NCBI RefSeq assembly: GCF_900101435.1
Contig: NZ_FMZH01000010.1
Location: 1 to 64,000 of the forward strand
Origin: Pedobacter soli
Lineage (GTDB): Bacteria; Bacteroidota; Bacteroidia; Sphingobacteriales; Sphingobacteriaceae
DNA length: 64,000 bases
Direction: 5' to 3'
The notes under the pieces are model-generated. The model did not search any database. It was given only the letters and a program-made list of their open reading frames with translations, and was not told the DNA's origin. A program made the translations under genes and the position numbers. Below are positions 38,720-53,409 of the stretch, one piece after another. Within the stretch, counting starts at the first letter, position 1, and the number at the start of each line of letters is the position of its first letter.

Positions 38720-38766
38720 AAAATTGGGTGTTAATTATGTAACTATTTGATTTTTAAGTTACTTTG

Positions 38767-39131
38767 TGGAGCCGAAGGGAGTCGAACCCTTGTCCAGTTG
38801 TGAGATAAATTATACCTTCTACATGCTTATTTTTCAATTGATTTTCGGGAAATAAACGGGCTGAAAACCGACCTTATTTAGATCCTTAGATACTTGATCT
38901 CACTTTAAGTCGTATCTCCTTAAAGCCAGCTTTGTTGTTTCGATGCCCCAGATTCTAACCCAACAATGCAGCAGTTAGAGGGACAAAAGCTAAGCGTAGT
39001 TCTAAACTAGGCAGCTAAGGCGTAAGTATTTTCGCCAATTAAAATGTGATCGTTCACTTTAAGTGCTCTCCGAACAACGCACTGCATGCTAACATAACCT
39101 TCGCCACCCTGTCAAATCCAAGAACGGCCCC
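38767..39131 (-). ncRNA. ssrA: Transfer-messenger RNA (tmRNA)
   Basis: The 365-nt RNA begins with GGGGCCG (complement of 39125-39131) and ends with CGGCTCCA (38767-38774), which pair as the acceptor stem and provide the CCA end. The T-arm sequence GGGTTCGACTCCC and the D-loop-like GGATTTGACAGGG are present. The tag reading frame (39008-39037) encodes GENTYALAA followed by TAG, so stalled proteins receive (A)GENTYALAA. It rescues stalled ribosomes in trans-translation. Upstream of its start lies an unusual 7-bp tandem repeat (39151-39226). Confidence 0.96.
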
Positions 39132-46273: not shown

Positions 46274-47026
46274 TTACTTTAAAAAACGCGAAAGGATTTT
46301 CTTGTCAATCGATTTTTCTAACAACTCCTGTCTGTTGGTTGCACTGATTGGAACAGTAAAATTATGATCTAAATGCACCTCGTGGTTGGTTAAGGTAGCA
46401 ATGTGGTTTACGTTAATGATATACTGCTTGTGCACACGGGCAAAAAGTTTTGCCGGTAATTGTTTCTCCAGGTTCTTCAGGCTAACTAAAATCACGTGCT
46501 TATCGGTGCTGGTAAACAGCTTCGAAAAATCGCCCATACTTTCGATGTAAATCACATCATCGTACCTTAGTTTGGTAATGCCTTTGGTTTCTCTGAAAAA
46601 GAAGTGATCATCTTCTTCTCCAACAGGTTGTTCATCCTGTGAAGTTTCCTTTCCAACCAGTTTTTTAAGTTCAAGATATTCAATAGCCTTATTGGTGGCT
46701 TTCAGTATGCGCTCAAAGGTAGCCGGCTTTACAATAAAATCTAAAGCATCGAGGTTAAAACTTTCGGCAGCATACTCACTATATGAAGTAATGAATATAA
46801 ATAAAGGCTGTTTTTTAAGGCTTTTCATCAGATCCATGCCCGAAAGCTCAGGCATGTCAATGTCCGAATAAACAATATCAACCCTGGTTGAGGCTAAGAT
46901 TTGTGAGGCCTCGATTCCGTTACTACAAACTGCTAAAATGTTTAATGAAGGGATTTTTTTAAGGTGCATTTCAATTGCATCTCTTTCTATTTCGTTGTCA
47001 TCAACAATTAGGCAGTTGTAGGTCAT
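46274..47026 (-). CDS. LytTR-family response regulator
   Basis: 250 residues. The receiver domain (about 1-120) has DD9-10 and phospho-acceptor Asp55 (VYSDIDMPE), with the conserved Lys in FIVKPATF. The LytTR DNA-binding domain (about 150-250) shows FFRETKGITKLRYDDVIYIE, FARVHKQYIINVNHI and VPISATNRQELL. It controls genes by binding direct repeats through a beta-fold. The stop codon lies exactly next to that of the TPR histidine kinase on the other strand, so the two mRNAs may overlap at their 3' ends. The DUF1684 gene ends 121 bp upstream of its start. Confidence 0.93.
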   Translation of the reverse strand: MTYNCLIVDDNEIERDAIEMHLKKIPSLNILAVCSNGIEASQILASTRVDIVYSDIDMPELSGMDLMKSLKKQPLFIFITSYSEYAAESFNLDALDFIVKPATFERILKATNKAIEYLELKKLVGKETSQDEQPVGEEDDHFFFRETKGITKLRYDDVIYIESMGDFSKLFTSTDKHVILVSLKNLEKQLPAKLFARVHKQYIINVNHIATLTNHEVHLDHNFTVPISATNRQELLEKSIDKKILSRFLK

Positions 47027-47147
47027 TTAGGGATAGTACTTAATTTAGTTAGAGAACAAGGGATTTACACTTAATGTTTCAAATTTAATTGAAAATGTGA
47101 ATTATTGTGTAAATCCCCGTGATTTTTTATCAATCCCCGATCGGGAA

Positions 47148-47759
47148 TTATTTGCGGTGTTTCTTTTCGCCGGTGTATAACTTTTCGCCTGCTGCTACTG
47201 CCAGTTGTAAGTCGTTTTCTTCGGGCGGTACCGGACAGCGATAACCCTCGCTATAGGCGCAATAAGGATTATAGGCCTTGTTAAAATCTATTTCAATTTG
47301 GTTATTCGCAATTGCTTTGCTATCCAAATCAATATATCTTCCGCCACCGTAGGTGGTTTTGCCATTTGTTTCGTCGGTAAAGGGCAAAAATAAATGATCT
47401 TTATACACCGGGTTGGCCGATAGCACAACACTCTTGTATAAAGTCATTTGTAGTTTTTTACCATTTAAACTGAAATTCACATGTGCATACCTGTAATAAT
47501 CGCTGCTGGTGCCATCGTAGGTGGGCATTTTAAAAACCTTTTCGTTTTGCAGCAGTGCTGCATCAGCTAAAACTTTATAAGTACTGTCTGCATCGTAGAA
47601 ATGAAGGTTTTCGAGATCTTTTTTCTTTAATGGAGATCGGCTGTCGGTAATAAAATCCTGCTTGTACGCTTCCCGGTGCTTTGCAATTTTTGCTGAATAG
47701 CTTTGCGCAAAGGCATTTATACTGATAAAAACGAGTAGAACAGGCAGGAATCTCATCAT
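47148..47759 (-). CDS. DUF1684 domain protein
   Basis: 203 residues with a signal peptide (about 1-18, ...INAFAQ). The conserved core includes LNGKKLQMTLYK, LFLPFTDETNGKTTYGGGRYIDL and the Cys-containing NPYCAYSEGYRCPVPPEEN of DUF1684 proteins; their function is unknown. It starts 5 bp after the stop of aroC and is therefore the last gene of the aromatic operon, probably by simple co-transcription. Confidence 0.9.
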   Translation of the reverse strand: MMRFLPVLLVFISINAFAQSYSAKIAKHREAYKQDFITDSRSPLKKKDLENLHFYDADSTYKVLADAALLQNEKVFKMPTYDGTSSDYYRYAHVNFSLNGKKLQMTLYKSVVLSANPVYKDHLFLPFTDETNGKTTYGGGRYIDLDSKAIANNQIEIDFNKAYNPYCAYSEGYRCPVPPEENDLQLAVAAGEKLYTGEKKHRK

Positions 47760-47764
47760 AGGAT

Positions 47765-48862
47765 TTATAAGGTACTTACTTTATTTCTTAAAAACTGATC
47801 GGCTAAAACCAATGCAGCCATAGCTTCTACAATAACAACCGCGCGAGGTACCACACAAGGATCGTGACGACCTTTACCTTTAATTTCGGCAGCTTCGCCG
47901 GCGGCGTTAATGGTTTGCTGGTTGTGCATAATGGTGGCAACCGGTTTAAAAGCCACTTTAAAAGTAATATCCATCCCGTTCGAAATGCCACCTAAAATAC
48001 CACCTGCATAATTGGTAGTGGTTTTAAATACTTTCGAATCGGCTGCTTTAGGCTGGGGGATATCGTTATGTTGCGAGCCTCTTAATTCGCTGCCTGCAAA
48101 GCCAGAGCCATATTCAAAACCATGAACAGCATTAATGCTTAACATAGCCTTGCCTAAATCGGCATGTAACTTATCAAAAACAGGTTCGCCCAGTCCGGCA
48201 GGGCAGCCTTTTACCACGCAACTGATCTTTCCGCCAACGGTATCTCCATCTTTGCGTACCGCATCAATAAATTCGACCATTTCGTGTGCAGTAGCAGGAT
48301 CAGCACAACGTACAATATTTTCTTCCCTGATTTGAAGTAAGGCTGATAAATCGTTGCTTTCCAGATTTGGAGCTTCAATTGTTCCTACTGAGGTTACATG
48401 CGCAAATATCTCAATACCCTGTTGTTTTAAGAACAGCTTGGCAATTGCACCTGCAGCTACACGGGCAGCAGTTTCGCGCGCCGATGAACGGCCTCCGCCA
48501 CGGTGATCGCGGATACCGTATTTGGCATCGTAAACATAGTCGGCATGACTCGGACGGTACACATCAACATTATGGCCATAATCTTTTGATCGCTGGTCTT
48601 CATTTGGAATAAGCAAGGCAATTGGTGTTCCGGTACTTTTTCCTTCAAAAATACCCGATAATACCTGAACGGTATCGCTTTCTTTTCTTTGCGTTGTAAT
48701 TTTCGACTGACCTGGCCTGCGTTTATCCAGTTCTGACTGGATAAAATCCATATCAATATCCAATTGTGCCGGACAGCCATCGATAATTACGCCAATAGCT
48801 ACGCCATGAGATTCGCCAAAGGTCGTGATGCGAAAAAGTTGTCCGAAAGAGTTACCTGCCAT
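47765..48862 (-). CDS. aroC: Chorismate synthase
   Basis: 365 residues, full length. It eliminates phosphate from 5-enolpyruvylshikimate-3-phosphate to give chorismate, using reduced FMN. The family signatures are [19 protein letters not shown] (about 12-30), the [21 protein letters not shown] block (near 117-137) and the RGSQHNDIP and [13 protein letters not shown] segments near 258-300. It is 127 bp after aroA in an operon with pheA and the DAHP synthase. Nothing unusual is seen. Confidence 0.97.
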
Positions 48863-48989
48863 ATTTTATTTTAGATGTTGGAAGTTAGATATGTGATAGG
48901 AGAAATATCCCGGTTATCATGTCTAAACTTCAATTTTTTAAGGTTAATTATTTTACTCCAGCTGTTAGCGTTGTCTCAAAGCTCACTTA

Positions 48990-50279
48990 TCAAATCTCCT
49001 GTACGTCAAATCCCGCCTTTTTCAAATCCTCCCAGTAATATGGATAAGATTTTTCTACAACCTGCATTTCTTCAATTTCAACTTCGTTGATGAGTAGGGC
49101 AAGTGGAGCAAAGGCCATTGCCATACGGTGGTCCTCGTAAGTTGCAATGGTAATTTTATCAGGGAAATGAAGGTTGTCGGTATTTAAAGTATAAACCAGG
49201 TTATCTTCGGTTAAAGTAACACCGATTTTAGCCAGTTCGTTTTGTAATGCGGCAATACGGTCGGTTTCTTTAATTTTTAAGGTCTCTAAACCTGTAAAAG
49301 CCATGTTTTTGCCTAATGCAGCTGCAATAACCACAATGGTTTGTGCTAAATCAGGGCAGGTTTTAAGGTCTAACACCTGATTGGTATCGAGTGAAAGCCC
49401 AAGGTTGCTGATCGAAATTCCTTTTTCAGTTTTGCTGGTTGCGATGCCAAAAATTTTCATGATTTTCTGGATCTGGCTATCGCCCTGTAAGCTTTTATCT
49501 TTTAAAGCCGGTAGGCTGATCTCTGCTTCGTCGGCTAATGCAGCGATGCTATACCAGTACGATGCAGCACTCCAATCCGGTTCAACAACCAAAGTGCCGG
49601 GCTTAAAAGCCTGCGGTTCGATGGAGATTGAATTTCCGTTCCAGGTGTGTGCAATACCTACTTCAGCCAACATGTCCAAAGTCATATCAACATAAGGCTT
49701 AGAAGTAAGTTCGCCCTCAATTTCTAAAGTTAAACCTTGTGGTAGCACAGGAGCAATCATCAACAAGGCAGAAATGTACTGACTGCTGATATCGCCTTTA
49801 ATTTTTATCTGGGCAGTTTTCTGATCCAATGGACCGATAATATTTAGTGGGGGAAAACCCTCGTTTTCTGCATAAGAAATGTTTGCACCAATTTTTTTAA
49901 GTGCTTCGGCCAGAATACCGATTGGGCGTTGTTTCATACGCTCGGTTCCGGTTAACAGGAAGTTACCGTTTTTTGCCGAAAGATAAGCCGAAAGAAAACG
50001 CATTGCAGTACCTGCAGGTCCTACATCAACCAGTTCTGAGTTTGCAGTTTTCAATTTAGAGTCTACTGCAGACTCACCATTCTCAACTCCCAGCTTGTTT
50101 AAGATACCATTTAAAGTCACAGTATCAGCGGCATTCGATAAGTTTTCTACTTTAACCAGTTTCTTGCTTAAAGCGCTGATAATTAACGCTCTGTTACATT
50201 CGCTTTTAGAGCCTGTTAATTGGATTTCCGTATTAATATTCTTGGTTCCTTTAAAAGAAACTAAGGCATTTTTTGACAT
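48990..50279 (-). CDS. aroA: 3-phosphoshikimate 1-carboxyvinyltransferase (EPSP synthase)
   Basis: 429 residues from ATG 50279; the frame upstream reaches only a TTG. It joins shikimate-3-phosphate and phosphoenolpyruvate. The inverse alpha/beta barrel is recognised from TGSKSECNRALIISAL (near 20-35), GPAGTAMRFLSAYLS (near 87-101) and KETDRIAALQNELAKIG (near 343-359), with the DHRMAMAFAPLAL end. It follows the DAHP synthase-mutase by 145 bp; that gap holds a perfect hairpin (50305-50332) and a dispersed repeat. The protein has the small-Gly (not Ala) motif typical of glyphosate-sensitive enzymes only as far as can be judged by eye. Confidence 0.95.
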   Translation of the reverse strand: MSKNALVSFKGTKNINTEIQLTGSKSECNRALIISALSKKLVKVENLSNAADTVTLNGILNKLGVENGESAVDSKLKTANSELVDVGPAGTAMRFLSAYLSAKNGNFLLTGTERMKQRPIGILAEALKKIGANISYAENEGFPPLNIIGPLDQKTAQIKIKGDISSQYISALLMIAPVLPQGLTLEIEGELTSKPYVDMTLDMLAEVGIAHTWNGNSISIEPQAFKPGTLVVEPDWSAASYWYSIAALADEAEISLPALKDKSLQGDSQIQKIMKIFGIATSKTEKGISISNLGLSLDTNQVLDLKTCPDLAQTIVVIAAALGKNMAFTGLETLKIKETDRIAALQNELAKIGVTLTEDNLVYTLNTDNLHFPDKITIATYEDHRMAMAFAPLALLINEVEIEEMQVVEKSYPYYWEDLKKAGFDVQEI

Positions 50280-50304
50280 TTTGTTTTGTTTTATGCTCAA
50301 ATGT

Positions 50305-50332
50305 AAGTGTCAGATGGAAACATCTGACACTT
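50305..50332. repeat. Perfect 12-bp hairpin between DAHP synthase and aroA
   Basis: AAGTGTCAGATG (50305-50316) and CATCTGACACTT (50321-50332) pair perfectly around GAAA (TTTC on the mRNA strand). No U-tract follows on the minus strand, so it is more likely a processing or stability signal than a terminator. Confidence 0.75.
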
Positions 50333-50357
50333 CATTATATATTGTTAATCGTCACAT

Positions 50358-50380
50358 TCCTTCGACAAGCTCAGGATGAC
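50358..50380. repeat. Dispersed repeat, copy 2 (inverted relative to 7216-7238)
   Basis: TCCTTCGACAAGCTCAGGAT plus GAC matches the complement of 7216-7238 at 22 of 23 positions. Confidence 0.7.
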
Positions 50381-50423
50381 ATCGCTGTCAGACGCCGCTT
50401 TTAGCTTTAGTCTTTGAGCTTAC

Positions 50424-51563
50424 CTATGCTTTAACTTCTGTATGTTGCTCAGCAGCAATGCCTTGCTCAGCTTTGCCAGCATTCATGATTTCAGTTTGCT
50501 TGCGGATCGACTCACCGTGTACCAATTCTAAGAATTTTTCGGTAAAGTTTAGGTCTAATTTTAATGCTTTTGCAAAAGCCTGACCTTTTTGGATGATGGC
50601 ATCCCAACGGTTAACCTGTAAAATGGTTACCTGGTTATCGCGTTTAAATTCACCAATTTTAGCAACAATCGCCATACGCTCACCTAATTTCTGTAATAAA
50701 ATATCATCAATTTTATCGATTGATTTACGTAAATCAGCTAATTTATCAGCCGAAGCTTCGTTTGCTACCTCTGGTTCGCGTACAGTTAAACGGTCTACCA
50801 GTTCTGCTAAAGCAGCAGGAGTAACTTGTTGTTTAGCATCTGTCCAGGCTACTGAAGGATCAACATGCGATTCGATCATTAGACCTTGCATATCTAAATC
50901 CAGGGCTTTTTGCGAGATGTAAGGGATTAACTCACGGTTACCGCAAATGTGGCTTGGATCGTTAATGATTGGTAAATCAGGGCAAAGCGTTTTTAACTGG
51001 ATAGCAAGTTCCCACATCGGTTCGTTACGGAAAGAGCTTTTCTCGAATGAAGAGAAACCACGGTGGATAGCACCAATTTTAGTGATACCTGCGCCATTGA
51101 TACGCTCAATTGCACCAATCCATAACTGTAAATCAGGGTTAACAGGGTTTTTAATCAATACCGGAACATCATGACCTTTTAAAGCATCGGCAATTTCCTG
51201 TACGGTGAAGGGGTTTACTGTAGAACGTGCACCAATCCAAAGGATATCAACACCAGCTGCCAAAGCTTCTTCAACGTGTTTTGCATTTGCAACCTCAACT
51301 GCTGTTGGTAAACCGGTTTCTGCTTTAGCGCGTTTTAACCACTCTAAACCAATGCTGCCAATACCTTCGAACTCTCCCGGACGGGTACGCGGCTTCCAGA
51401 TACCGGCTCTTAAAACCGATACTTTACCAGTTGCAGCCAATAAATGTGCGGTAGTTAATAATTGTTCTTCGGTTTCTGCACTACAAGGGCCAGAAATGAT
51501 TAATGGTTCGTTGTTTACGTTTAACCAGGTGTTTAAAGGTTGAATGTTTAAATTTAGTTTCAT
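50424..51563 (-). CDS. Bifunctional DAHP synthase - chorismate mutase
   Basis: 379 residues. The N-terminal part (about 1-265) is the KDO8P-synthase-like DAHP synthase (PLIISGPCSAETEEQL, VLRAGIWKPRTRPG, VKNPVNPDLQLWIGAIERI, INDPSHICGNRELI). The C-terminal part (about 278-365) is an AroQ-type chorismate mutase helix bundle (KLADLRKSIDKIDDILLQKL, RMAIVAKIGEFK). It makes 3-deoxy-D-arabino-heptulosonate 7-phosphate, the first step of the shikimate pathway, and rearranges chorismate to prephenate, the substrate of pheA next door. The fused mutase explains why the pheA protein has no mutase domain. It is the second gene of the attenuated operon. Confidence 0.95.
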   Translation of the reverse strand: MKLNLNIQPLNTWLNVNNEPLIISGPCSAETEEQLLTTAHLLAATGKVSVLRAGIWKPRTRPGEFEGIGSIGLEWLKRAKAETGLPTAVEVANAKHVEEALAAGVDILWIGARSTVNPFTVQEIADALKGHDVPVLIKNPVNPDLQLWIGAIERINGAGITKIGAIHRGFSSFEKSSFRNEPMWELAIQLKTLCPDLPIINDPSHICGNRELIPYISQKALDLDMQGLMIESHVDPSVAWTDAKQQVTPAALAELVDRLTVREPEVANEASADKLADLRKSIDKIDDILLQKLGERMAIVAKIGEFKRDNQVTILQVNRWDAIIQKGQAFAKALKLDLNFTEKFLELVHGESIRKQTEIMNAGKAEQGIAAEQHTEVKA

Positions 51564-51638
51564 GATGATTGGTATTTAATTCCGGAGTCCGGTTTATATT
51601 TTAAATTGTTTAATTGTTGTGTTGTTTTTTGGTTAATC

Positions 51639-51664
51639 GGTTAATTGTTTAAATCGGTTAATTG
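51639..51664. repeat. Dispersed GGTTAATTGTTTAAA repeat, second site
   Basis: The 26-bp sequence starting GGTTAATTGTTTAAATCGGT matches 39266-39291 at 24 of 26 positions. More GTTAAC-like blocks follow up to 51690. It lies in the 131-bp gap between pheA and the DAHP synthase gene. Confidence 0.75.
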
Positions 51665-51694
51665 ACAGTTAACCAGTTTATACAGTTAACCATG

Positions 51695-52528
51695 TTATAC
51701 CTTATCGTTCTTCTGATATTCGCCAAGGATATTAAAGTTCGAGGTATATTTTAATGCTTTCCTAACGGCTTTATCGTATTTATCGGTGCTTGGCCATTCT
51801 AAATCGACGTAAAAGTAGTATTCGTTTCGTTTACCTAATACCGGCATAGATTGTATTTTTGTTAAGCTTACATCCTGTTCGGCAAAGATGTTTAACACGG
51901 TGGCCAGCGAGCCGGCTTTGTGCCCAACCTGGAAACAGATAGAAGCCTTGTTTATTTTTTTGCCTTCGTCTGTTTTATCTTTTTTGAGGATGAGGAAACG
52001 GGTGTAGTTTTTCTTGTTCGATTCTACACGGCGTTCTAAAATGTTTAAGCCGTAAAGTTCAGCAGCTAAGTTGTTTGCAATTGCCATTGTATCTGTCAGT
52101 TTTTCTTCCTGAATGCGTTTGGCACAGGCTGCAGTATCGTTACTCTCCACAATTTTAATGTGCGGGTAATCGTAAAAGAAATCGATACATTGACGGATGG
52201 CGATAGGGTGTGAGGTTACCACTTTAATATCCTCGAATTTTACACCAGGTAAAGCCATTAAGTGCAATTGGATAGGCAAATACACTTCACCAACAACCGA
52301 GAAACCATAATCACGAATCAGGGTATAGTTTGGTAATAAACTACCTGCAATGGAGTTTTCGATGGCCATTACCACGAAATCTGCTTCGTTTTTTTCAAGC
52401 TTATCGCAGGTTTCTTTAAATGAATTGCATTCTACAGTTTCAATGCTTTTACCAAAGAATTTGTAGGCTGCTTCTTCGTGAAAAGAGGCCTTAATACCCT
52501 GAATTGCTACTCGTTTTGTCGTTTCCAT
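51695..52528 (-). CDS. pheA: Prephenate dehydratase
   Basis: 277 residues from ATG 52528. It converts prephenate to phenylpyruvate, the committed step to phenylalanine. The catalytic domain (about 5-185) has the opening VAIQGIKASFHEEAAYKFFG, ADFVVMAIENSIAGSL and the Thr-Arg-Phe motif (NYTRFLIL). The C-terminal ACT domain (about 193-272, VGHKAGSLATVLNIFAEQDV then SLTKIQSMPV) should bind phenylalanine for feedback inhibition. The frame stays open to 52582, but that extension reads through the attenuator terminator and is not translated as part of this protein. A promoter, leader peptide and terminator lie directly upstream (52543-52723). Confidence 0.95.
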   Translation of the reverse strand: METTKRVAIQGIKASFHEEAAYKFFGKSIETVECNSFKETCDKLEKNEADFVVMAIENSIAGSLLPNYTLIRDYGFSVVGEVYLPIQLHLMALPGVKFEDIKVVTSHPIAIRQCIDFFYDYPHIKIVESNDTAACAKRIQEEKLTDTMAIANNLAAELYGLNILERRVESNKKNYTRFLILKKDKTDEGKKINKASICFQVGHKAGSLATVLNIFAEQDVSLTKIQSMPVLGKRNEYYFYVDLEWPSTDKYDKAVRKALKYTSNFNILGEYQKNDKV

Positions 52529-52542
52529 TTTTTGCGTTAAAC

Positions 52543-52573
52543 AAAAAAAGTCCCGGCTGTTTGCCGGGACTTT
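52543..52573 (-). terminator. pheA: Attenuator terminator in the pheA leader
   Basis: On the minus strand AAAGTCCCGGC (52563-52573) pairs perfectly with GCCGGGACTTT (52547-52557) around AAACA, followed by U7 (52543-52549). It lies 15 bp before the pheA ATG. Its first arm can alternatively pair over 9 bp with GCCGGGGCU at the end of the leader ORF (52615-52623), which would prevent termination. Confidence 0.92.
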
Positions 52574-52612
52574 CTTATACATTTTAATATTTTTTATATA
52601 TCTTTTTGCATA

Positions 52613-52675
52613 TTAGCCCCGGCTCTCACTAAAATAGTAAAAGTAACCAAAGTAATATGTGCTAAAATTTTTCAT
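52613..52675 (-). CDS. Phe/Tyr-rich leader peptide of the pheA operon
   Basis: The 20-residue ORF reads MKNFSTYYFGYFYYFSESRG and then TAA. Residues 4-15 contain four Phe and five Tyr. It begins 19 bp after the -7 box and ends 40 bp before the terminator stem. The codons of the last three residues and the first base of the stop form GCCGGGGCU, complementary to the first terminator arm. A ribosome stalled on the Phe/Tyr codons leaves this segment free to form the antiterminator; a ribosome reaching the stop covers it, so the terminator forms. It is a control element rather than a functional protein (inference from structure, consistent with classical amino acid attenuators). Confidence 0.9.
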   Translation of the reverse strand: MKNFSTYYFGYFYYFSESRG

Positions 52676-52693
52676 CTCTTTTTTTCGTTGAGC

Positions 52694-52723
52694 CAAATGT
52701 AGTAACAAAATTTAATTTGTCAA
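52694..52723 (-). promoter_or_regulatory. pheA: Promoter of the pheA operon
   Basis: On the minus strand TTG (52721-52723), 19 bp, then TACATTTG (52694-52701) match the Bacteroidota consensus TTG-N19-21-TAnnTTTG exactly. Transcription should start near 52688, about 13 bases before the leader peptide ATG. Confidence 0.85.
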
Positions 52724-52892
52724 TAGGAAATTGAAAATATTTTTAATAAAATTTAATTTTATTGATTTTAGACCGTTTTGGTGCATGGTATAAATTCTGT
52801 TAAAGGTTGGTTTGAAGTAATGAAAATGAGCGTTTGTTATTGGGAATATGTAGGGCAAGTGATTTATACGTTGTTAAGGAATTGAACATGTA

Positions 52893-53225
52893 TCACAAGG
52901 TATCAATTATTTTCTGTATGTCTTTTTTAGTAATAGTAGCCTCTTCTGATTTGTCATAAATGTAAATCATATTGATTTTATTTTTAACTTATAAGTAGGT
53001 AATTACTCTATAACCTCCACTTTTTCCTTTCCCCTTACTTTTTACAGCTAATCTTATTTTGAAAATGCCATTGCCTAAATCAGTACCTGTTCTTGGGTTC
53101 TCAAGTAATACGGATTCTAATTCAGATAAGTCGCTAATTAATGATGCATGTTTCTTCTTTAGCTGCTTAGCTTTTTTTATGAAAATTGGCGAGTAGACTA
53201 TGGTAATTTCTGCCATATCATACAT
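52893..53225 (-). pseudogene. RelE/ParE-type toxin, interrupted by a stop codon
   Basis: The readable part (53225 to stop TAA 52989-52991, 78 residues) has the RelE-family body: an N-terminal helix-rich segment (YSPIFIKKAKQLKKKHASLI), NPRTGTDLGNGIFKIRLAV, and KSKGKGKSGGYRVITYL. In the same frame after the stop, 31 more codons to TGA 52893-52895 encode the rest of the family (MIYIYDKSEEATITKKDIQK, ending IIDTL). A single nonsense codon thus splits a toxin of normal length (about 109 residues). The truncated protein lacks the C-terminal strand and helix and is probably inactive. It overlaps the antitoxin end by 8 bp. Confidence 0.8.
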
Positions 53226-53409
53226 CTTTCAATGATAATGGCGCAATTTTTCCGGCTTTGATTTCTTTAGCTTCTCTTATTCCTTGCGTAATGCCATCAA
53301 GTAAAAGTTGCTTTTTAGAAGTTTGGATCACTTTCGCATTAATTCTTTTTAGTACCTCTAAAAGAAATTCTGTATCGTTATCTTTAACTTGTATAGTCAA
53401 TGTTGTCAT
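53218..53409 (-). CDS. Antitoxin of the RelE-type pair
   Basis: 63 residues with no signal peptide. The N-terminus (MTTLTIQVKDNDTEFLLEVL) has a short beta strand followed by a helix, and the C-terminus is basic. This is the layout of small Bacteroidota antitoxins paired with RelE-like toxins; the family is not assigned precisely. It precedes and overlaps the toxin gene by 8 bp, which is the standard order antitoxin then toxin. Since the toxin carries a stop, the antitoxin may be a relic or protect against related toxins. Confidence 0.75.
   Translation of the reverse strand: MTTLTIQVKDNDTEFLLEVLKRINAKVIQTSKKQLLLDGITQGIREAKEIKAGKIAPLSLKDV

Follow-up and report, generated by a model that had tools for sequence, protein, structure and literature searches.

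An aromatic leader peptide and three competing RNA helices suggest ribosome-mediated attenuation of the pheA gene cluster in Pedobacter soli and its relatives

Judged from the window (the whole stretch of 64,000 nucleotides of Pedobacter soli analysed here, contig NZ_FMZH01000010.1, positions 1 to 64,000) and from related genomes, the cluster pheA - DAHP synthase/chorismate mutase - aroA - aroC is very probably controlled by a classical ribosome-mediated transcription attenuator. The DNA ahead of pheA holds what is expected of such an element, i.e., a leader ORF rich in cognate codons, a terminator, an antiterminator that excludes it, and a protector hairpin (1:2), and the interpretation is well supported by comparison among relatives. 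The features are listed below.

52694..52723, minus strand: predicted promoter of the Bacteroidota type, TTG (-33, 52723-52721), N19 and TACATTTG (-7, 52701-52694)
52613..52675, minus strand: putative leader peptide ORF MKNFSTYYFGYFYYFSESRG, 20 codons, 9/12 Phe/Tyr
52654..52659, minus strand: outer part of segment 1, CAUAUU; partner AAUAUG at 52614-52609
52636..52643, minus strand: inner part of segment 1, CUUUUACU, from the end of codon 11 to the start of codon 14; partner AGUGAGAG at 52630-52623
52615..52623, minus strand: segment 2, GCCGGGGCU, the antiterminator arm, which extends by one base into the leader stop codon
52563..52571, minus strand: segment 3, AGUCCCGGC, common to antiterminator and terminator
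52557-52549, minus strand: segment 4, the terminator partner of segment 3
52543..52573, minus strand: intrinsic terminator, 11-bp stem (52573-52563 / 52557-52547) and U tract
51695..52528, minus strand: pheA, prephenate dehydratase, 277 aa, first gene under the predicted control (PF00800, E 3.5e-56)
50424..51563, minus strand: DAHP synthase fused to chorismate mutase (PF00793 and PF01817 over cut-off)
48990..50300, minus strand: aroA, EPSP synthase (PF00275 and TIGR01356 over cut-off)
47765..48862, minus strand: aroC, chorismate synthase (PF01264 and TIGR00033 over cut-off)

An initial annotation had described this region as a complete Phe/Tyr attenuator, and its individual elements withstood re-examination. 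Direct reading of the minus strand confirmed the promoter TTG-N19-TACATTTG; the 20-codon leader with nine Phe/Tyr in twelve codons was correct to the base, its aromatic run occupying codons 4-15 with four Phe and five Tyr; and the 11-bp terminator stem with U7 was found as described, the seven T running from 52549 to 52543 with the first three inside the stem and ending 14 bases before the pheA start codon (52528). The pairing of the leader end with the first terminator arm (GCCGGGGCU with AGUCCCGGC) was likewise recovered as 9 bp including one G-U. The word complete was right in that promoter, leader, terminator and antiterminator are all present, but the inner leader hairpin (1:2) had been missed. 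One terminator scanner run on the region did not output the leader terminator; our reading is that its rule wants T after the full stem, while the stem here enters the T tract. The terminator was also considered as belonging to the upstream gene, a candidate that we rejected since that gene, encoding a hydroxylase, carries a terminator-like site of its own (53520-53498). A small two-gene stretch (52989-53409, minus strand) separates the hydroxylase gene from the attenuator; its first ORF matched no Pfam family, and its second ORF appears to end early and has a weak RelE likeness (25.8 bits vs a Pfam cut-off of 27); it is perhaps a decayed toxin-antitoxin pair.

The arrangement is far from what chance yields. 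Both strands of the window (64 kb) were scanned for ORFs of 8-45 codons in which 7 or more of 12 codons are aromatic and which a terminator follows. Three ORFs qualified, and one of them, the pheA leader, had a downstream terminator; it is thus the only place where a short aromatic ORF and a terminator occur together. Ten block-shuffled windows gave 23 qualifying ORFs, none with a terminator. The leader region also folds 5.8 sd better than its dinucleotide shuffles (z = -5.8). A second DNA match in the same genome (L002) was set aside, as it lies, by eye, inside an unrelated OmpA-like gene.

The element precedes pheA in nearly all relatives covered within the family. PheA was detected at E <=1e-40 in 135 of 151 family genomes, that of the window included; upstream DNA was covered for 109 of the 134 other PheA-bearing genomes and for the best 80 of 133 confirmed named loci; the two sets overlap, as some entries are the same assembly. 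Leader and terminator preceded pheA in 80/80 of these best named loci and in 106/109 family genomes, so that an aromatic leader was present in 187 of 190 stretches, window included. Named Pedobacter PheA proteins were up to 100% identical to that of the window, and the PheA of the three misses (L188-L190) only 42%. Four terminators (L089, L147, L172, L174) were detected only under a relaxed rule. Start codons of the 187 leaders were ATG in 179, TTG in seven and GTG in one, and the aromatic content was at least 7/12 in all leaders except one with 6/12. Aligning the pheA leaders of relatives, the check proposed in the initial annotation, showed that the Phe/Tyr codon runs as well as compensatory changes in the alternative stems are conserved.

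What is conserved in the leader is the class of codons rather than the peptide. Among 76 non-redundant leaders, six core columns are aromatic in 74-76 of the 75-76 leaders having a residue there, while the identity of the residue varies (F45/Y30, F62/Y13 and Y51/F22). Phe and Tyr are both present in every one of the 76, and Trp also occurs in 38, the window's leader being without it; the mean leader carries 3.7 Phe, 3.9 Tyr and 0.5 Trp. That identity swaps while class is kept is as codon sensing by charged tRNA predicts, unlike an arrest peptide of fixed sequence. In 11 of the 76 leaders the stop codon comes before the GGG of segment 2, placing the antiterminator arm downstream of the stop, and in four further leaders that GGG is missing. 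The arm is nonetheless recognisable in the early-stop leaders (CCGGG is unchanged in five of the 11, the others differing by at least one base), and its persistence where it is no longer translated indicates that segment 2 acts as RNA and that it is pairing, and not a peptide function, that keeps the SKSRD/G end conserved.

The three helices were examined in alignment A1 (76 sequences) against 500 shuffles per helix, which ignore relatedness, so that the shuffle counts given here are not probabilities: the antiterminator 2:3 had 91.3% of its cells paired and 13 cells changed on both sides (covariation 0.176 vs 0.140 in shuffles, 0/500 as high), the terminator 3:4 had 96.5% paired and 44 changed on both sides (0.305 vs 0.165, 0/500), and the inner 1:2 stem had 95.9% paired and 27 changed on both sides (0.256 vs 0.187, 0/500). 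The outer 1:2 stem, with 87.6% of cells paired, did not covary above shuffles across the 76 leaders (115/500 as high). Hence the two mutually exclusive structures that the initial annotation had called for, 2:3 and 3:4, are both conserved and both covary above the shuffled level. Sliding the partner by one to three columns made paired cells and covariation score drop steeply. Two measures were weaker: shuffles matched or exceeded the number of pairs changed on both sides 11 (2:3), 13 (3:4) and 39 (inner 1:2) times in 500, and 2:3 slid by one column had 15 doubly changed cells vs 13 in register. Unpaired positions in 2:3 were found in 10/76 leaders at column 81 and in 11/76 at column 77.

Several replacements run through all three arms. 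Segments 2, 3 and 4 change together from GCG to AUA in L019, L089 and L104, with L013 (GUA) as an intermediate, and a second coupled three-arm change leads from CGC to UAU (L170), AUA (L172) or GUA (L132, L135); some of these are close relatives by eye (L019/L104 and L132/L135), so the sequences outnumber the events. Within the inner 1:2 stem, double changes are most frequent in pair 48/65 (CG 51, UA 22, UG 2, other 1), which joins the third base of a Tyr codon (74/76) to a base that lies 8 nt onward in the window.

Folding energies fit a competition among the three helices, which in the window come to -16.8 (1:2), -20.8 (2:3) and -20.8 kcal/mol (3:4). When the RNA was hidden up to an assumed 9 nt past the A-site codon, 2:3 formed with the ribosome at codon 8, 12 or 15 as long as segment 4 was still to be made (the codon-15 mask leaves 7 bp of 2:3), and it did not form with the ribosome masked at the stop codon. 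Two outcomes speak against the simplest form of the scheme. After segment 4 has been transcribed, the terminator belongs to the lowest-energy fold whatever the ribosome state, and read-through must therefore be a matter of kinetics. In RNA free of ribosomes, 2:3 is likewise the lowest-energy fold as long as segment 4 is still to come; this fold does not predict termination without translation, which would require 1:2 to form first. In the set of 76 leaders, the strongest 2:3 duplex had a median of -15.6 vs -5.1 for shuffled regions; it beat all 20 shuffles of its own region in 69 leaders and failed to do so in seven.

From this layout we infer leader translation, stalling, termination, read-through and the identity of the sensed amino acid. 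RNA polymerase would start about 13-14 nt ahead of the leader, which a ribosome would begin to translate with no need of a Shine-Dalgarno sequence. A shortage of charged Phe- or Tyr-tRNA would stall this ribosome at codons 4-14 and prevent segment 1 from pairing, leaving segment 2 (52623-52615) free to capture segment 3, upon which transcription would read through. If Phe and Tyr were both plentiful, the ribosome would arrive at the stop codon and cover segment 2, the 3:4 terminator would form and transcription would end before pheA. With no ribosome loaded, 1:2 would form first and 3:4 would be free to terminate, which is the least certain step of the scheme.

The start of the transcript and of the leader both appear typical of the phylum. 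A promoter motif (TTG, spacer of 17-23, TAnnTTTG) lies within 110 nt upstream in 167/187 leaders, window included, vs a mean of 1.15/187 in a composition-shuffled control; the exact motif is absent from the other 20. It stands 16-18 nt before the start codon in 123 of the 167 leaders (18 in the window), and the minus strand of 47000-53000 holds no other exact TTG-N17..23-TAnnTTTG. The available text of PMC6847099 gives 4-5 nt from the -7 element to the transcription start in Flavobacterium johnsoniae, a spacing that predicts a start at about 52688-52689 and a 5' UTR of about 11-14 nt here. The same text describes Bacteroidetes mRNAs without Shine-Dalgarno sequences and A at -3, -6, -12 and -13 as favourable. 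In our 187 leaders, positions -10 to -1 are 63-82% A, and GGAG, GAGG or AGGA occurs at -18 to -4 in only five, which bears out the earlier claim of initiation without a Shine-Dalgarno sequence.

Three other explanations were weighed. The attenuator might sense only Phe or only Tyr, the remaining codons being passengers or held by RNA pairing, and we regard this as unlikely, though a serious candidate. A precedent exists in the Phe-Tyr-Phe leader of Corynebacterium glutamicum, which, in the available text of PMC11802643, responds to Phe and not to Tyr. In addition, the near-invariant Tyr codon at peptide column 16 (74/76) contributes its third base to the 1:2 stem of 74/76 leaders, and pheA serves the Phe branch, TyrA not being among the five cluster proteins tested. 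Against single sensing, Phe and Tyr exchange at several positions, their mean counts are nearly equal (3.7 vs 3.9), and the cluster also serves the common chorismate pathway.

A rather different possibility is an arrest peptide. In TnaC-type leaders, a small molecule makes the ribosome stall on the peptide's own sequence, and within Pedobacter the leader does look conserved as a peptide. We nevertheless find such a mechanism very improbable, since the aromatic residues replace one another without loss of codon class or RNA arms, the SKSRD/G tail is lost in early-stop leaders whose arm is still recognisable, and the 1:2 pair with the most double changes uses the third base of a Tyr codon, mostly synonymously, with a co-changing partner. 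More improbable still is a plain terminator, or a riboswitch or T-box type element, accompanied by a chance ORF. The intrinsic terminator is strong (stem-loop -20.8 kcal/mol) and could by itself suggest this, but the aromatic leader recurs in 187/190 stretches, and no unit appeared in shuffled windows (>=7/12 aromatic) or in window pieces and shuffled upstreams (>=6/12). No Rfam family matched here at threshold; among the 21 Rfam matches up to E 10 in 52300-53000 there was no T-box covariance model, and RF01859 (Phe_leader) scored 27.0 bits, below its gathering score of 55. Attenuation by a translating ribosome thus remains the reading that we prefer.

Downstream of the attenuator, DAHP synthase/chorismate mutase, aroA and aroC follow pheA in this order on the same strand in 77 of the best 80 of 133 named loci, the remaining three being short contigs that show only part of the order, and aroB lies upstream in 72 of the same best 80. 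The four genes of the window likely form one transcript; the intergenic gaps of 131, 123 and 127 bp leave room for other promoters, so a single transcript is not certain. Translation of aroA may in truth begin at an in-frame ATG at 50279, and the gene after aroC encodes a DUF1684 protein. At 50305-50332, between the DAHP synthase gene and aroA, a 12-bp inverted repeat precedes a copy of TACATTTG on the minus strand; this may be an internal promoter or the site of a regulator. A tmRNA gene (Rfam RF00023) is also found in the window, at 38764-39131 on the minus strand.

Units of this kind also occur beyond the family. Among 149 Bacteroidia genomes, PheA was found at E <=1e-30 in 40, of which 35 are outside the family, and 34 of these 35 upstreams were covered. 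A leader-terminator unit was detected in 21/34, 20/34 and 16/34 at aromatic minima of at least five, six and seven in 12 codons, respectively. Leaders with a weak terminator in L211 and L226, recognised by eye, raise the total to 23/34, and 11/34 have no unit or a remnant only. Controls at >=6/12 gave 0/384 window pieces, 0/680 shuffled upstreams and 1/34 opposite strands; at >=5/12 they gave 8/384, 2/680 and 2/34. One more distant Bacteroidia genome (L218) carries two aromatic leader-terminator units in tandem before pheA, an arrangement that L222 may resemble. In L194, also outside the family, a terminator-like hairpin stands near a -7-like element upstream of pheA with no leader, possibly a loss of the leader.

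Comparable leaders occur at other amino acid genes of the same genome. The aspartokinase gene (thrA-like, with amino acid kinase and ACT domains; stretch L261, G000:C12:181500-183600) and ilvD (L260) have codon-matched leaders, MIFNSSIITTIIITTGINQRG and MNLNTSIISNLIIVISQQRGGYRCV, each with a strong terminator, and trpE (L258) has the leader MINNIHTWLWQSNSKTDCAGCV with two Trp, again with a strong terminator. The hisG stretch (L257) holds the codon-matched leader MNLTLNHHLHLHHRR and no clear U-tract terminator was seen in its upstream stretch; it may thus work otherwise. The Thr/Ile leader of the aspartokinase gene recurs in two relatives (L263 and L264) and came to light through a match to a covariance model of the aromatic RNA, R1. 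This model matched 108/295 class genomes at E <=0.01, a count that we did not use, as most low-scoring matches are taken to be other terminators. In its own genome, R1 found four sites, namely the attenuator itself, the aspartokinase leader, G000:C12:155491 and G000:C14, the last of which was rejected as an attenuator because it looks like an ordinary terminator by eye. Rfam gave no match at threshold in L257, L258, L260 and L261, nor in the pheA stretches L266-L268.

Taken together, we lean, with some reserve, towards a broader view in which Bacteroidia, without Shine-Dalgarno sequences, run a full set of classical attenuators for the aromatic amino acids, Thr/Ile, Ile-Leu-Val, Trp and perhaps His. 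At the chorismate genes, Phe, Tyr and, where the leader encodes it (half of the cases), Trp would then be pooled as one signal. Were this so, RNA polymerase and the first ribosome would have to be tightly coupled over a 5' UTR of about 11-14 nt. A classical attenuator works only if a ribosome follows closely on RNA polymerase, and an element of this kind, conserved and covarying in organisms that do not use Shine-Dalgarno initiation, opens transcription-translation coupling in Bacteroidota to a direct test with a simple reporter. The element would also offer a ready sensor for aromatic amino acids in Bacteroidota, it represents an RNA without any Rfam family match at threshold, and it adds to the picture of gene control in a large group of bacteria on whose regulation of amino acid synthesis we found little written.

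A survey of attenuation across bacteria by Lopatovskaya et al. in 2010, cited in PMC4833913, may already list Bacteroidota cases. For Flavobacterium psychrophilum, the available text of PMC9723704 presents strong indications that leader peptides attenuate amino acid operons, together with a structured pheA 5' element that is kept in Flavobacteriaceae and has no Rfam match; going by that text, it is likely the same element as that of Pedobacter. The available part of PMC7366714 likens short ORFs within long Bacteroides thetaiotaomicron 5' UTRs to attenuation leaders, and that of PMC8632094 mentions a Phe leader before aroF in Acholeplasma. The initial annotation had considered a mixed Phe/Tyr leader in Bacteroidota little described. 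This stands for Sphingobacteriaceae, where we found none reported, and has to be qualified in view of the Flavobacteriaceae clues and the C. glutamicum Phe-Tyr-Phe leader, as far as the available texts of PMC9723704 and PMC11802643 go; because of this prior art, the novelty is lower than suggested. The open-access literature, with subscription papers mostly outside it, yielded no description of the Sphingobacteriaceae element or of its three-helix covariation.

The attenuators of E. coli pheA (with its leader pheL) and of the trp, thr, ilv and his operons of Proteobacteria consist of a leader ORF with cognate codons and the hairpins 1:2, 2:3 and 3:4. The Pedobacter element resembles that of E. 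coli pheA in its cognate-codon leader, its three competing hairpins and its position before the cognate biosynthetic operon. It differs in that the leader mixes Phe and Tyr (and, in 38/76 leaders, Trp) whereas pheL uses Phe, in that the cluster includes genes of the common pathway, and in having no Shine-Dalgarno sequence, a Bacteroidota promoter and a very short 5' UTR. Attenuated operons of Proteobacteria are named in the accessible portions of PMC1183508 and PMC11802643. The latter also describes the aroR leader before aroF of C. glutamicum (Actinobacteria), a Phe-Tyr-Phe leader controlling a DAHP synthase operon, as the Pedobacter leader would; three aromatic residues are named there vs nine in Pedobacter, and Tyr availability is stated to be without effect. 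Against this background, the Pedobacter attenuator appears ordinary in kind, but well conserved and new in detail.
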